Positions 37,963 through 46,476 of a DNA stretch of 64,000 bases are shown here, piece after piece (within the stretch, counting starts at the first letter, position 1; each line of letters starts with the position of its first letter). Both the position numbers and the translations under genes were made by a program. A model generated the notes under the pieces. That model did not search any database. It was not told the DNA's origin and worked only from the letters and a program-made list of their open reading frames with translations. This DNA is from Hyphomicrobiales bacterium (GTDB lineage Bacteria; Pseudomonadota; Alphaproteobacteria; Rhizobiales; JACESI01): contig JBDWKL010000043.1 of assembly GCA_039973685.1 (NCBI GenBank), positions 124,001 through 188,000 of the forward strand. Direction: 5' to 3'.

Positions 37963-39375
37963 CTAAGACCAACCACCGTTTTTAGTGCGGTAGAAGATAT
38001 GGACACCAATGCGGGTTAGGACTTTCATAGTACGCCCCCACTTTGGACTGACGTAAGTTGCGTGATAATGGGTAGAATCCGCTACTTCATCGAGATAAAT
38101 TTTGCCTTTTGATACATCACGGGCAATTCTAACCGCTGTCTTCCAAGACTTCTTGTCATTGACGCGGTCATAAATACCATCACAGGCAAATGAGAACTGG
38201 CAACGATTGCGCCAATGTTTGTTTTGATAAACCACACCGCAGATCGTGTTTGGATAAGCTGGTGCTTTCACGCGGTTCAAGATCACTTGAGCGACAGCTG
38301 CCTGCCCCTTTTCGATTTCACCGCGTGATTCAAAATAAATGCCCGCTGCAAGACAACGCTGTTGGTTCTTGCGGTAGACAGAGCCTGGCAATTTAAAGCC
38401 TGCCCAAAAATGCAATTTCTTGCCAGATTTTCTCTTTTGCGGTTCAAGACTTTCTGCGACTTCCGGCTTCAATCTTGGAACTGGAACATCCGCAAAACCT
38501 TCATAAACTGGCGTTAAGATTGCCTGTTGTTGTGGTTCAACAACTTTAACTTGACCATTTGGTGCAACCGGCAATACGGCGTGTTTACCGTCGCGGCGTG
38601 CAAGCACTGCTTCAAAAACAGCGCGTGGGTCGTTTGTTTTCGCAGCATAACCAGTTTGAACCTGAGCAACCTGCGGTATTGATGCCGTTACAGTTGTATC
38701 GATCTCAATATTTGCCTGTTCTGCTGCATCATTTTGAATGGCAGCAATCGCTGCTTCTGGAATAAGAGCTAACGGCGCTGATTTTGCTGCAGGCGCTGCC
38801 TCTTTTTTGGCAACCAGCACTTTGCGACGTGGCCGATCTTGTTTCTGATCAATCTTTGTCACAGCTGCAGGCGTAGCGACTGGCGCTGGTGTTGGTGAAA
38901 CAAAGGCAACTGTTGGCCAAAGCTGAGCATTAGGCGCGCTAAGAATAGAACTGCCATCAAACATAACGCCAGCAGACAATGATCCAGCTTTGCGACCATA
39001 TTTACCAACGGGCAAATCACCCTTAGCAGCTTGAACCGAAGGCTCTTTTGAAACTATCTTTGCAATTGCGGGCGTTGGTGCGAAGGCATAGCCTTTGAAG
39101 CTCTTACCAGAACCAATGTCCATGCCTTTAAGCAAAACACCGTTCTCATCCATGATCATAGGTGACGCGCCTTTGCGCTTCACGAAATCACGTCCAAGAG
39201 CAGCCGGACTTGTAACAATGGATGCAAGCCAGCGATCTTCGCCAAGCTTCTTACCGGCGAAGGCACTTACATCTTGAAAATCAATGCTATTTGGGAAAGC
39301 GACAGTGAGCGCCAAAACGGCAGCACCACACATGGCAGCAGAACTTAACTGGGCGGTTAGATTTTTACGCGACAC
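37963..39375 (-). CDS. SleB/CwlJ-type cell wall hydrolase
   Basis: This 470-residue protein has a hydrophobic N-terminus (likely signal or anchor), a long low-complexity alanine/proline/valine linker, and a C-terminal Hydrolase_2 domain from about residue 345. The domain shows R-C-L-A-A-G-I-Y-F-E-S-R-G-E (catalytic glutamate), V-I-L-N-R-V, C-Q-F-S-F-A-C-D-G and H-Y-H-A-T-Y-V. It would cleave peptidoglycan glycan strands in the periplasm; the same domain degrades spore cortex in Bacillus. The start is GTG with a weak ribosome site. Confidence 0.85.
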   Translation of the reverse strand: MSRKNLTAQLSSAAMCGAAVLALTVAFPNSIDFQDVSAFAGKKLGEDRWLASIVTSPAALGRDFVKRKGASPMIMDENGVLLKGMDIGSGKSFKGYAFAPTPAIAKIVSKEPSVQAAKGDLPVGKYGRKAGSLSAGVMFDGSSILSAPNAQLWPTVAFVSPTPAPVATPAAVTKIDQKQDRPRRKVLVAKKEAAPAAKSAPLALIPEAAIAAIQNDAAEQANIEIDTTVTASIPQVAQVQTGYAAKTNDPRAVFEAVLARRDGKHAVLPVAPNGQVKVVEPQQQAILTPVYEGFADVPVPRLKPEVAESLEPQKRKSGKKLHFWAGFKLPGSVYRKNQQRCLAAGIYFESRGEIEKGQAAVAQVILNRVKAPAYPNTICGVVYQNKHWRNRCQFSFACDGIYDRVNDKKSWKTAVRIARDVSKGKIYLDEVADSTHYHATYVSPKWGRTMKVLTRIGVHIFYRTKNGGWS

Positions 39376-39599: not shown

Positions 39600-42170
39600 T
39601 TAGCGCGAAGAAAGTGTCGCTTGTGCTGCTGCAAGCCGTGCGATTGGCACCCGAAATGGTGAACAGGAAACATAATCTAATGCTAAACGTTCACAAAAAT
39701 GGATCGACGATGGATCGCCGCCATGCTCTCCGCAAATACCAATTTGAAGATGTGGGTTGGCCTCACGCCCTTTGATGGTTGTCATCTCAATGACGGCTCC
39801 AACGCCCTCTTCATCGATGGTGACGAAGGGGTCTTTGTCCATCAAACCCATTTGCTCATAGGTGGTCAAAAAGGCAACGGCATCGTCTCGCGAAATACCA
39901 AAGGTGGTTTGGGTCAGATCATTTGTGCCGAATGAAAAGAAATCTGCTTCTGAGGCAATTCGGTCTGCAATCATTGCCGCGCGCGGCAATTCGATCATGG
40001 AGCCGACCTTATAATGAAGCGAATAGTCGTGCTTATGCTCCACAATTTGCGCCGCATCATCAATCAACCGACTGATTGCAATAAACTCACGGTTCAAGGC
40101 CACCAAGGGCACCATGATCTCCGGTTTTACATCAATGTCATATTTGCGATTGATTTCGATGGCTGCCTCAAAAATCACCTCAACCAGCGTTTTGGCAAGT
40201 TCAGGATTACAAATCAACAAACGACAACCGCGATTGCCAAGCATCGGATTTGTTTCACTCAACTCATCTATCGTGAATTCCAAATCACTGGCTTTAAGGT
40301 CCAATGTTTTGGCGAGCTTTTTTATATCCGCTTTTGTTTTTGGCAAAAACTCGTGAAGCGGCGGGTCAAACAAACGAATGGTTGTTGGTCGCTCGCGCAT
40401 AACTTCGAACAGGTGGACAAAATCTTGCCGCAGCAACGGCACCAATTTTGCGACACCTAAAAGGCGGGTGCGATCATCCGTTGCTAAGATAACCTGACGC
40501 ATTGCCGCTAATCTATCTGGCTCAAACAACATATGCTCTGTGCGACATAGCCCGATACCCTCAGCACCGAAACGCACAGCAACCTCCGCATCACCGGGGC
40601 TTTCTACATTGGTCAGCACCTTCATGCGTCTAAATTCATCAGCCCATTCAAGCAAGGTAGACAAATCACCAGATACTTCAGACGGGCGCAATTGGCATTT
40701 GCCGTCATACATCATGCCCGTGGAGCCATCGACTGTAACATGATCGCCTTCTTGATAGATCTTACCATCAACTTGGAAGCTCTTAGCTTCTTCATCCACC
40801 ATAATACCCGACATGCTTACGATGCAGGGCTTACCTGTGCCGCGAGCGATCACGGCAGCGTGGCTGGTCAGGCCGCCTTTGGTTGTTACGATGGCGGATG
40901 AGGCTTGCATGCCACGAATATCTTCCGGCGTGGTTTCTGCCCGCACCAAGATTACCTGCCAACCTTTTGACTTAAGCGCTTCTGCAGCACTGGCAGAAAA
41001 TACGGCCCGTCCTGTTGCAGCCCCTGGTGAAGCAGATAGGCCATGGGCCAATTCTTTCAATTCTTGTCCAACATCCAAGCGGGCGTGAAGAATATCAATC
41101 AAACGATCAGGCTCAATGCGTTGGACAGCTTCTTCTTTGCTGATCTCTCCTGCTCTCACCATTTCAACAACAAAAGTTACCTCTGCCGCCGTTGTCAAAG
41201 GCAGTGAAGTGCCATCAACAATATAGGCCTCGTCGTTTGCGATAATGAAATCTAACCGCTCAGCCTTGGCGCTTTTCACTTCCCAAGAAATTGCCTGCCC
41301 GATGATGTCTTTTATCACCGCGTCAGATTTGCGCTCTGCAATCGGGATCGGCTGACTTGAACCATTATGTTCAAATATCTGACCCTCGAGACACCGTTCG
41401 CCAGTATTCTCATCGCGAGCAGCAATCCAACCAGTCGCCGTTGGTTGCACACCATTCCACGGCACACATACTTGGATAACGACACCAAGCCCGCCAGTAT
41501 CTTCGATGTTATAAAGTTGTCGATAGGTTTGGGCGCGTGTCTTATTCCATGATTTCCACATCAACAAGACCGTCAACAAAAGCTGATCGGACGGATTGAG
41601 CGGCAAGGCATCATCAGTTTCTCGCTTGGCGATTTCCAGATAGGCCTTCAAAAGACCATACCAATCCACGTCACCTGCTTGTTCGGCAATATCTAGCTTG
41701 TCGTCAAACAGACTTTCATCAACGCCAAAAGACTGTGTTGCGATTTCCCGAATGGTACTGGCAAATTGTCGTGATGCGTACTGCTTGTCACCTTCATCCG
41801 CTAAATATTCAATAGCGTCTAATGTCCAACCAACATGCAATATATGAAGGCCAAACCCTGCTTGCGCCACAACAGGACTAACCCGCACAGCTAAGATAAG
41901 AGGGTTTTCCTTTTCACCTAGCCATTTGCGGGTGGTGCGTTGAAGGCCACGCACACCGCGCGAGATTTCAACCTGAAACGACGTCGATAATTCACCCTTA
42001 TCATTCGAGTTCTGCGAATACGCCAAAATCGGCAATGCAAACGATGGAGCCACGCGTAAACCAGCAGAAGCCATCGCAGCCAATCGCTCAGACTTCGCGC
42101 CATAGCACTCAGCTGCAAGCGATGTTTTGCTGCTTCGCGATTGTCCAAAACCGATAACGTCTACAGACAT
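39600..42170 (-). CDS. ppdK: PPDK-like PEP-binding protein with degenerate ATP-grasp domain
   Basis: The 856-residue protein has the layout of pyruvate phosphate dikinase. The swivel domain is intact, with the phospho-acceptor H437 in G-G-L-T-S-H-A-A-V-I-A-R-G. The PEP/pyruvate barrel is intact (G-L-C-R-T-E-H-M, G-N-R-G-C-R-L, S-F-G-T-N-D-L-T-Q-T-T-F-G, catalytic C836 in D-Y-V-S-C-S-P-F-R). The N-terminal 340 residues are strongly changed. The glycine-rich M-P-G-M-M-D-T loop is missing, and the terminal Q-T-R of the ATP site reads V-D-G. It occupies the usual rhizobial ppdK site beside glyS. It may have lost dikinase activity while keeping PEP-dependent phosphorylation, or it may use an altered nucleotide site. 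Confidence 0.8.
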   Translation of the reverse strand: MSVDVIGFGQSRSSKTSLAAECYGAKSERLAAMASAGLRVAPSFALPILAYSQNSNDKGELSTSFQVEISRGVRGLQRTTRKWLGEKENPLILAVRVSPVVAQAGFGLHILHVGWTLDAIEYLADEGDKQYASRQFASTIREIATQSFGVDESLFDDKLDIAEQAGDVDWYGLLKAYLEIAKRETDDALPLNPSDQLLLTVLLMWKSWNKTRAQTYRQLYNIEDTGGLGVVIQVCVPWNGVQPTATGWIAARDENTGERCLEGQIFEHNGSSQPIPIAERKSDAVIKDIIGQAISWEVKSAKAERLDFIIANDEAYIVDGTSLPLTTAAEVTFVVEMVRAGEISKEEAVQRIEPDRLIDILHARLDVGQELKELAHGLSASPGAATGRAVFSASAAEALKSKGWQVILVRAETTPEDIRGMQASSAIVTTKGGLTSHAAVIARGTGKPCIVSMSGIMVDEEAKSFQVDGKIYQEGDHVTVDGSTGMMYDGKCQLRPSEVSGDLSTLLEWADEFRRMKVLTNVESPGDAEVAVRFGAEGIGLCRTEHMLFEPDRLAAMRQVILATDDRTRLLGVAKLVPLLRQDFVHLFEVMRERPTTIRLFDPPLHEFLPKTKADIKKLAKTLDLKASDLEFTIDELSETNPMLGNRGCRLLICNPELAKTLVEVIFEAAIEINRKYDIDVKPEIMVPLVALNREFIAISRLIDDAAQIVEHKHDYSLHYKVGSMIELPRAAMIADRIASEADFFSFGTNDLTQTTFGISRDDAVAFLTTYEQMGLMDKDPFVTIDEEGVGAVIEMTTIKGREANPHLQIGICGEHGGDPSSIHFCERLALDYVSCSPFRVPIARLAAAQATLSSR

Positions 42171-42320: not shown

Positions 42321-44369
42321 TTAGCCCTCAATGCGGGTGAAATCTGCAACGAGCGATGTCGCTGATCTGATTTTTGCTAAAAGCGCTAGGCGGTTGGCGC
42401 GAATGTTTGGATCATCATCATTCACCAACACGCCATCAAAGAACGCATCAATTGGACCACGAATAATCGACACAGCCTGCATGGCCGCGCCAAAGTCTTC
42501 AGCGGCCACAGCAGCTTCTGCTTTTGTCGAGGCTTGGTCGATGGCTTCAGCCAGTGCTTTTTCTTCTGGGAGAACGAGCAGGCTTGCATCAATTGAAGAA
42601 CCAACCGTCGCACCCTTCTTCTCTTCCGCTGCCAAAATATTAGTTGAACGCTTATAGCCCGCCAACAAGTTTTGGCCGTCATCAGTATTGAGGAAAGCAG
42701 TCAGGGCTTCCACGCGACGCGCAATCATTAGGAGATCATCGGCGTCAGAGGTAATGACAGCGTCAATCAAGTCATGGCGTGCATCTTGATCGCGCAAAAA
42801 CACTTTGAGGCGGTCGTGGAAGAATGAAAGGAGGTCATCGCTGACACCTTCTGATTTCAACGCCAAGCGGAAATCATTTTGCAAAATAATGCGGATCACA
42901 CCGAGGGCGGCGCGACGAAGTGCATAAGGGTCTTTTGACCCCGTCGGCTTTTCATCTATCGACCAGAAGCCCATCAACGTATCAAGCTTATCAGCCAGCG
43001 CGATTGTGGCAGCCACCTTATCAGTTGGCACATCATCACTTGGGCCCTGCGGCTTATAGTGATCTTCCATCGCAGTCACCACAGAAGCATTTTCCCCTGC
43101 AATCTCTGCATAATAGCGGCCCATCAAGCCTTGAAGCTCAGGGAATTCGTAGACCATTTCAGTCATCAAGTCGGCTTTGCAAAGACTGGCGGCACGCTCG
43201 CACAATGAAGCATCCGCCCCTGTCTTCTCGCTCAATTGAACAGCAAGCTTCTTGATGCGTTCAACACGGTCTGCTTGGCTGCCAAGCTTTTCGTGGAAGG
43301 TTACGATTTTGAGTTTCTTCGCACGCTCTTCAAGCGACACGTTCAAATCTGTTTCCCAGAAGAATTTCGCATCAGACAAACGCGCCCGCACCACACGGCC
43401 ATTGCCTTTGGCAACTTCAACACCGCCGTCGTTTGGCTGGATGTTGGACACCAAAATGAACTTGTTGGTCAGCTTGCCAGTCTTTTGATCTTTCAGCACG
43501 AAACACTTCTGGTTCACGCGAATGGTGAGCTGGATCACTTCAGGCGGGATGTTGAGAAATTCCTCATCAAACTCACCCATTAAAACAACAGGCCATTCAA
43601 CCAAACCGGAAACTTCTTCTAAAAGCCCTGCATCTTCTACAAGCTCTAACCCTTGTGCAAAGGCTAGGTCTTTGGCGTCGTGAAGGATGATGTCTTTACG
43701 ACGTTCTGGGTCTAGCACCACATTGGCTTTTTCAAGTTCCGCCATATAGTCGTGCAAGCGGCGAACCGCGATTTCGTCTGGTGCATGGAAGCGGTGGCCA
43801 CGGGTTTTATTGCCAGATGGTACGCCTTCAATGTCGAACGTAATCACTTCAGGGTCTTCAGTCTCTGGACCGAAGGTACAAAGGATTGATTGCAACGGAC
43901 GCACCCAACGCATGGCACCCGCTTGGCTAGAGGCTTTGCCCCAACGCATAGATTTTGGCCACGGAAACTTCTTGACGATGTCTGGCACGAGGTCTTGCAA
44001 AATGTCTTCTGCATCACGACCCGGCTTGTTGATGACGGCGACGTAGAAATCGCCCTTCTTCGGATCGTTTTTAACTTCGGCCTCATCAATGGAGGAAAGA
44101 CCCGCACCGCGCAGAAAACCAGCAAGCGCTTTTTCCGGCGCGTCGGTGCGTGGACCTTTGCGCTCTTCGCGAATATCAGCGGAGCGCTTGGTCAAGCCAT
44201 TCACAGAAAGGGTCAAACGGCGGGGCGTCCAAAACTCTTTTGCACCTTCATAGGTCAGACCCGCATCCACCAAGCCGTCGGTGATCATCTTACGTAAATC
44301 ACCGGCTGCTTTTCGTTGCATCCGCGCTGGAATTTCTTCCGAGAAGAGTTCTAACAATAAGTCTGGCAT
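42321..44369 (-). CDS. glyS: Glycyl-tRNA synthetase beta subunit
   Basis: This is the beta chain of the tetrameric bacterial glycyl-tRNA synthetase, which charges tRNA-Gly. The 682-residue protein begins with the family signature [15 protein letters not shown] and contains P-K-S-M-R-W-G. It has the H-D-like segment of the central domain (Y-Y-A-E-I-A-G-E-N) and [13 protein letters not shown] near the C-terminal third. It is the partner of glyQ, here separated from it by two inserted genes. Confidence 0.96.
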
Positions 44370-44814: not shown

Positions 44815-46476
44815 TTAAGAACGCCCCGAAAATGTTTCCCAAATTGAGCGCAAGTTTTTCTTACCGGCGCGGGCTGCATTCATTTCGGCTTCGGATTTTG
44901 TTTCAGCATTTTCCAAAGTCTCATCGACGCTATTGCCAACAGCTTCTTTCGCCTTATCAACAACTGTTGACGCCCGCTCAGTGGCTGTCGATACGGCATC
45001 GCCTGCAGCTGCAATTGTCTCTTCAACTTGTTCACTCGCATGATCTGCAAGATTAGAAGCTTCCTCTTTTAAAGAGGATACTTTGTCATTGGCCTCTTCA
45101 GCCAAATTGGAAGCTTTTTGCGTAACATCTTCAACGGCAGATGCTGCCATTCCCATCCCATTTTTAGCGGCAAAGGAATTTGCGTTGGCAAGTGCTGCAG
45201 CACCAGGGATCGTCGTGGCGCTTGATGCATCGTTGGTTTCGCCAGCTTGATCTGATGCGTCCTCGTCGGTTGCTTCACCTGTTGCGGCTTCATCATCCAA
45301 AGCTTCTAACGCATCGGCAACAACCGCCATTTCATCCGCCACAGCAACGGTTTCATCAGCCTCGACAGCCGCTTCATCCGCCACATCAATGGTTTCATCA
45401 ACCTCAACAGCCGCTTCATCCGCTACAGCAACGGTTTCATCAACCTCGAAAGCCGCTTCATCTACCACAGCAATGGTTTCATCAACCTCATCTGCTGCCT
45501 CATCAGCGACCGCAATCGCTTCATCGTCCTCTTGAGGTTTCAACGCCACGCTATCAATCCTAACGCCGCTATCAAGCAACCCCATCACTGCGTTAGCCAT
45601 CCACTTACTCGTGACGCGGTTTTCGCCATTTAAGAGCGACTTGATAAAGCTTCCTGCTTTGCTCTCGTCAAAACTACGAATAAGGCCCGTTTCCTCACCC
45701 AGTAAATCAATAACCTTATCACTCACACCAACATTTTTGAGGCGTTCGCTCGCGTTTTCGATCTCAGCAATATCTGATTTTGCAGATTTAACGTCGCTGA
45801 TAATATTTTGCAGCTTATGCGCGCCCTCAGATGACAGGTCAGCCACAACAAGCGCATCGTCAGCCGCAATCATACGAATGTTCGCGCCGGTCTCATCACT
45901 TACACCGCAAAATTCAACGATTGATTGGAAGGACTGCATGCGTTCAACAAAGGCATCAACATTGCCACCTGCATCTTCGCCAGCTTCACCCTCAGGCATT
46001 TGAATAACGGCAATTGCATCCGATTCAAAATCATCACGGCTCTCAACGCCAAAATAATTGGCAACGGCCATCAGTCTTTCGACCTCATCTGTCAGCTCAG
46101 AGATCCCTTCCCCTTCGCGGCCAATTCGCACGAGGTTTGCAGAAAAATCATCGCCACTGCCATCGGCATCGCACATAGATTTGAGGCACTTCTCAAAATC
46201 ACCACTCATGATGCTGGCAAAACCGAGCTGGTTGTATTCTGGAAAAATCTTCATTGCCGGATCGACAAAAAGGCTTTTGTCATAAGAGCAAAGCGCTTTC
46301 TTGGCGGCAGATGAAAGTTCATCAATGGTATCTTGAGACGCTTCACCACCATCAATAGTGGCGTCGCTTAAAGCGCTACCTTTGGCAAGGACATCGCCCA
46401 ATTGGTCGATCAAGCCTCCTTCACCGACGCAGGACAAGAAACGTTCACATAACAAAGACGCCGTTCGCAAATTCAT
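44815..46476 (-). CDS. Unknown protein with 14-residue acidic repeats
   Basis: I do not recognise this 553-residue protein. Residues 1-310 form a globular, cysteine-containing region (cysteines near 10, 16, 63, 97, 102 and 190) with no signal peptide. Residues 321-390 are about five 14-residue repeats (consensus like V-A-V-A-D-E-A-A-V-E-V-D-E-T). The C-terminal 120 residues are alanine/lysine/glutamate-rich amphipathic helix, resembling LEA or apolipoprotein-like sequence (K-A-S-N-L-A-E-E-A-N-D-K-V). It lies between glyQ and the CDGSH gene. No pathway can be inferred from sequence. Confidence 0.75.
   Translation of the reverse strand: MNLRTASLLCERFLSCVGEGGLIDQLGDVLAKGSALSDATIDGGEASQDTIDELSSAAKKALCSYDKSLFVDPAMKIFPEYNQLGFASIMSGDFEKCLKSMCDADGSGDDFSANLVRIGREGEGISELTDEVERLMAVANYFGVESRDDFESDAIAVIQMPEGEAGEDAGGNVDAFVERMQSFQSIVEFCGVSDETGANIRMIAADDALVVADLSSEGAHKLQNIISDVKSAKSDIAEIENASERLKNVGVSDKVIDLLGEETGLIRSFDESKAGSFIKSLLNGENRVTSKWMANAVMGLLDSGVRIDSVALKPQEDDEAIAVADEAADEVDETIAVVDEAAFEVDETVAVADEAAVEVDETIDVADEAAVEADETVAVADEMAVVADALEALDDEAATGEATDEDASDQAGETNDASSATTIPGAAALANANSFAAKNGMGMAASAVEDVTQKASNLAEEANDKVSSLKEEASNLADHASEQVEETIAAAGDAVSTATERASTVVDKAKEAVGNSVDETLENAETKSEAEMNAARAGKKNLRSIWETFSGRS
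45307..45516 (-). repeat. 42-base coding tandem repeats
   Basis: About five imperfect tandem copies of a 42-base unit encode 14-residue acidic alanine/valine-rich segments of the unknown 553-residue protein. Third-position changes between copies show they are not recent exact duplications. Copy number may vary between strains. Confidence 0.8.

Follow-up and report, generated by a model that had tools for sequence, protein, structure and literature searches.

A ppdK orthologue with an eroded ATP-grasp domain and an intact PEP and phosphohistidine half recurs across an alphaproteobacterial order

The only ppdK of the genome analysed here probably encodes a nucleotide-independent phosphohistidine protein that is charged by PEP and passes its phosphate to another acceptor. 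Alignment shows that the protein has a destroyed ATP-grasp site but an intact swivel histidine and a complete PEP/pyruvate site, the latter two with substitution patterns that point to purifying selection. By the same comparisons, the eroded outcome is recurrent, appearing in several lineages, in some of which the whole ATP-grasp domain has been deleted. A central glycolytic and gluconeogenic enzyme has repeatedly lost both its ATP half and a dedicated regulator and has kept the PEP half, which indicates that selection keeps something besides dikinase activity. We infer that the half-reaction between PEP/pyruvate and the swivel histidine is what is kept. The possibility that a central enzyme has a second function, so far undescribed, thereby becomes directly testable.

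The gene occupies positions 39600–42170 on the minus strand of the window, the whole 64,000-nucleotide stretch of DNA that was analysed. It begins with ATG and encodes 856 amino acids; all features below are on this strand. Directly upstream is its conserved neighbour glyS (glycyl-tRNA synthetase beta, 42321–44369), and a 470-aa putative cell-wall hydrolase, its function read from the sequence by eye, is encoded at 37963–39375. The order glyQ–glyS–ppdK–hydrolase is common to other members of the order, so the gene is a ppdK by descent. This synteny with glyS backs the original prediction that the gene is a repurposed ppdK and not one of unrelated origin. The protein aligns over its full length with structurally characterised PPDK and scores 817 bits over the whole chain against TIGR01828, narrowly missing the cut-off of 843. 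An AlphaFold2 model (mean pLDDT 84) has the PPDK fold throughout, with a whole-chain TM score of 0.89 to both 5jvj and 1vbg. The fold is retained in the predicted N-terminal domain as well, where the pLDDT of the blocks is mostly 70–87. A 553-aa protein (44815–46476), encoded upstream of glyS and apparently between it and glyQ, contains a 42-bp tandem repeat at 45330–45525 that translates into units of 14 aa in which A, V, D and E are abundant. A relative is found at the same place in G003.

The N-terminal domain (PPDK_N, residues ~1–330; 41181–42170) is an eroded ATP-grasp domain, keeping 41 of 121 columns that are invariant in canonical proteins. A profile search of this domain, proposed as a check with the original prediction, and an alignment of the ATP contacts, named there as a possible refutation, both bear out the erosion. 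PPDK_N (PF01326) scores 22 bits, under the cut-off of 27, and 3 of 20 ATP-grasp site residues are kept in an alignment on Clostridium symbiosum PPDK, compared with 19–20 of the same 20 in canonical PPDKs from 27 other genomes of the order. The survivors are K22, R92 and G101 (C. symbiosum numbering). The S98-MPGMMDT105 segment is replaced by A-Q-A-G-F-G-L-H (residues 102–109; 41844–41867); the M-P-G-M-M-D-T loop is gone, as had been claimed, and reads Q-A-G-F-G-L-H. Further along, IVDGT (residues 317–321; 41208–41222) stands in place of F-L-Q335-T-R337. Q-T-R had been reported to read V-D-G; its loss is confirmed, although the register needs correction, with L334 aligned to V, Q335 to D and T336 to G, and Q335-T-R337 as a whole to D-G-T. 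R134 and R135 are also lost, the Q277-G-E-D280 loop is deleted, D321 is replaced by R and E323 by D.

The rest of the protein is well preserved. The phosphohistidine swivel domain (residues 373–490; 40701–41054) keeps 41 of 47 canonical-invariant columns, and the PEP/pyruvate-binding barrel (residues 493–856; 39603–40694) keeps 115 of 130. Both Pfam domains are intact, with 78 bits for PEP-utilizers (PF00391) and 244 bits for PEP-utilizers_C (PF02896). The T-S-H of the swivel is present in GGLTSHAAV, which includes H437 (codon 40860–40862), and the catalytic C813 is encoded at 39732–39734. H437, R543, R599, E727, N750, D751 and C813 correspond to C. symbiosum H455, R561, R617, E745, N768, D769 and C831. 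With all seven kept, the conservation first noticed in the swivel domain and in the barrel with its catalytic cysteine holds. From established PPDK knowledge, we take the C. symbiosum residues listed here to be those of ATP, PEP and phosphohistidine chemistry.

The ATP-grasp erosion is common to four species of the genus, the one in the window and three congeners, which rules out a sequencing or assembly error. Two congeners have full-length proteins with 71% identity to the 856-aa protein; the third is represented by a contig-end fragment covering the N-terminal half, with 55% identity. Positions 321 and 323 vary within the genus (R/K and D/Y/E, respectively), a pattern that, judged from the residues, is not like that of a working metal site. 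The N domain also has conserved blocks particular to the genus, such as the new genus-wide motif ISRGVRGLQRTTRKWLG. Identity within the genus is 56% in the N domain versus 83% in the PEP domain, and dN is about threefold higher (0.37 versus 0.13; dS is saturated and ratios are bounds only). Wherever dS can be estimated, dN/dS is far below 1 in the His and PEP domains. Together with the retained predicted fold, the blocks of its own indicate that the N domain is altered and constrained rather than freely decaying, and a domain still under constraint presumably does something.

No other PPDK_N match was found in the genome in a profile search at E 0.001, so a second ppdK and a PEP synthase are both lacking. 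The intact second copy that the original prediction proposed to look for was not found, and a second ppdK or PEP synthase elsewhere is ruled out. PDRP, a bifunctional kinase that regulates PPDK, is absent from the genome (PF03618/DUF299), and none was found in G000–G003. The loss of catalytic ATP residues, whose positions vary within the genus, the lack of a second PPDK_N and the missing PDRP all agree with the original view that dikinase function is unlikely; from its sequence, the protein has almost certainly lost this activity. Pyruvate kinase and an ATP-type PckA are both encoded, which rules out a replacement for either, and pyruvate kinase was found in all 40 genomes tested. A complete, GAF-containing PtsP (EI-Ntr) is encoded elsewhere, beside an apparent prfA; with PtsP intact, a stand-in for a missing enzyme I is likewise ruled out. 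Within about 8 kb, there is no partner gene specific to eroded loci. The family of the 470-aa hydrolase-like protein is represented close to ppdK in 13 loci with an eroded gene and in 2 with a canonical one; this neighbour and glyS are both ancestral.

We searched 397 genomes of the order, taken to be Hyphomicrobiales from its size, gene content and ppdK–glyS synteny, with a profile (A1) built from canonical ATP-grasp domains and with PDRP; genomes that had no row of their own in the profile results were assigned by elimination. The ATP-grasp domain is weak, absent or partly eroded in 56 of the 397: no match was obtained in 32, E exceeded 1e-35 in 8 and lay between ~1e-69 and 1e-104 in 16. PDRP is absent from 52 of these 56 degenerate genomes versus 18 of the 341 others (Fisher 1e-44, with genomes that are not independent). 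Phylogenetically independent pairs number only 4–6 and the sign test on them is not significant; pairs differing in PDRP status point in the same direction in nearly all pairings. The four PDRP-positive exceptions are G027, where the gene is fragmentary, G172, which has lost ppdK altogether, and two members of genus g23 with a weaker PDRP match. In the related genome G025, a PEP synthase gene has a similar second PDRP next to it. Genus g70 (family f44) accounts for 11 of the 18 PDRP-less genomes with a near-canonical ATP-grasp domain, and two of the three PDRP-less g70 proteins read combine D321K with E323G (L139, L140 and genus g70). These members are possibly at an early stage of erosion. 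Across g70, ATP-grasp E values are 1e-151 to 1e-168 without PDRP and 1e-176 or better with it.

The His and PEP half was present in 32 of 35 genomes searched, most of them with a lost or weak ATP-grasp domain and the others included for comparison. It was not found in G066, G101 and G172, the only ATP-grasp-less genomes checked in which ppdK seems to have been lost entirely. The ATP-grasp domain is wholly deleted in genus g115 of family f35 (G263, G287, G311) and in G379, leaving stumps of about 540–600 aa, and is lost in part in family f6, where several members have ~770–780 aa. The seven catalytic PEP and His residues are present in each of the 36 eroded proteins aligned, which represent about ten families; in these proteins, canonical-invariant columns are kept to 43% in the N, 87% in the His and 92% in the PEP domain. 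Thr453, the PDRP target, is replaced in 7 of the 36 versus none of 27 canonical proteins. When canonical proteins are compared in pairs, identity is as high for the N domain (69%) as for the PEP domain (68%); one eroded pair from family f23 gives 54% and 89%, respectively. A tree of the His and PEP half requires at least 7 state changes; supported branches force 5 of these, and long branches leave some joins unsure. Family f67, from another order, shows the same erosion and the same Q335-to-D change. All four f67 genera sampled are eroded (L186–L189), reading L-D-G or L-D-A at L334-Q335-T336 and R for K22. Q335 has become D in 13 of the 36 eroded proteins, convergently in at least four lineages (f1, f23, G307 and f67). 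Among eroded proteins in which the N domain is still present, nearly all retain K22 (or R), R92 and G101.

How might such a protein work? PEP would phosphorylate H437 and pyruvate would leave. With no ATP site for the swivelling arm to reach, the phosphate would pass to another acceptor, a protein or a small molecule, much as in enzyme I of the PTS. Because the same residues are kept in independent lineages, the retained function was probably already in the full-length ancestor, and the phosphohistidine relay is thus likely to be a second function of the dikinase itself. Where pyruvate kinase and PckA cover PEP/pyruvate conversion, dikinase activity and PDRP could be lost and this second function would survive. 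The original prediction was phosphohistidine formation from PEP, followed by transfer to a partner or a regulatory role. Its PEP and histidine chemistry is supported by the residues kept in 36 of 36 proteins and by purifying selection; favouring a partner over a sensor is our own judgement. Several observations count against a relay: eroded loci share no specific partner gene, the complete PtsP already serves PEP-dependent phosphotransfer, the HPr-binding domain of enzyme I is absent from the 856-aa protein, the N domain of the genus is still constrained, and the small number of independent pairs leaves the sign test short of significance.

In our judgement, the likeliest reading is a phosphohistidine protein that is charged by PEP and serves another acceptor, with a PEP/pyruvate sensor in second place. 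Such a sensor would be charged by PEP and discharged by pyruvate, its phosphorylation state controlling a bound partner with no phosphate passed on. The residues for reversible PEP/pyruvate exchange are all kept, and the N domain of the genus, with its predicted fold and new conserved motifs (ISRGVRGLQRTTRKWLG among them), could be a binding surface. However, with the N domain deleted in f35 genus g115 and in G379, the output there would have to be independent of it; we regard the sensor as improbable, though a serious rival. That deletion also weighs on an N domain rebuilt for a different nucleotide or phosphate ligand, by which the protein would still be a two-substrate phosphotransferase. 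The survival of K22, R92 and G101 suits this proposal, as does the repeated Q335-to-D change, which looks beyond drift. Yet positions D321 and E323 vary even within the genus and the E279-D280 loop is deleted, making an altered ligand quite unlikely.

Two further readings have still less in their favour. A relic that serves no selected function and is in the process of being lost is hard to reconcile with seven catalytic residues kept in every eroded protein, with the low dN/dS of the His and PEP domains (far below 1 wherever dS is estimable), and with apparent total gene loss in only three of the ATP-grasp-less genomes checked. The dikinase should be dispensable where PckA and pyruvate kinase exist and the N domain does evolve fast, but we give this explanation very little weight. 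We find it equally implausible that the protein is a PEP phosphatase, in which hydrolysis of phospho-H437 would convert PEP to pyruvate irreversibly. Its PEP and His sites are complete, as this would need, but pyruvate kinase occurs in every genome tested for it, and we know of no fast hydrolysis of a PPDK phosphohistidine.

The PEP-charged protein with another acceptor, our preferred reading, may extend further. It is conceivable, and we would put it just short of an even bet, that PPDK of this order, perhaps of Alphaproteobacteria at large, contains a hidden PEP-charged, ATP-independent phosphohistidine relay parallel to PTS-Ntr. If so, lineages with a dead or deleted ATP-grasp domain would be natural separation-of-function mutants that expose it. 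There is also a consequence for annotation. One congener scores 844.4 on TIGR01828, where the cut-off is 843.45, and annotation based on this model assigns dikinase flux to organisms that are very likely unable to carry it.

Compared with known systems, the protein is closest to PPDK (EC 2.7.9.1; TIGR01828), of which it is an orthologue by synteny and full-length homology with intact His and PEP domains. It differs in its destroyed ATP/AMP/Pi site, in PPDK_N and TIGR01828 scores below their cut-offs and in the absence of PDRP from the genome. According to a review, all bacteria with PPDK have a DUF299 homologue (PMC8100219); the genomes here do not fit this universal pairing. A PPDK with a lost ATP-grasp domain is not described in the literature searched, in which subscription journals were mostly outside coverage. 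PEP synthase (PpsA) has a homologous three-domain layout but is ATP-dependent, and the 856-aa protein scores far below the cut-offs of the NCBIfam PEP synthase models (146 of 740 and 160 of 598 bits). In HpeHI, CreHI, PpsAB and rifampin phosphotransferase (RPH), acceptor modules are swapped around the dikinase swivel histidine (PMC12167813, PMC4844700). These are likewise dikinase-family modules recombined for new acceptors, but they are ATP-charged and have no PEP barrel.

Enzyme I of the PTS and EI-Ntr (PtsI, PtsP) share homologous His and PEP domains, a PEP-charged histidine and the lack of an ATP site, and the stumps of 548–601 aa are similar to them in size. However, the 856-aa protein lacks the HPr-binding PEP-utilisers_N domain that PtsP of the same genome has, and its His and PEP domains are of the PPDK type, with PtsP a separate protein. 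Inverse losses are also seen. At L120 (G025:C11:1681-4314) the ATP site is kept 20 of 20 and the PEP domain is eroded, with E745 and N768 among the residues replaced, in the genome whose PEP synthase has its own neighbouring PDRP. At L124 (G014:C2) and L193–L196 (family f86), in relatives within the class, truncated PPDKs of 557–573 aa have only the ATP-grasp and His domains and are VadK-like. VadK itself (Rv1127c, Mycobacterium tuberculosis) is a PPDK remnant that has kept ATP-grasp and His and lost the PEP domain, and full-length mycobacterial PPDKs without kinase motifs were noted in the same work (PMC13400623). Like VadK, the 856-aa protein derives from PPDK, has lost one substrate domain and the dikinase function and keeps the phosphohistidine; it retains the PEP domain instead of the ATP-grasp domain and is therefore its mirror image.
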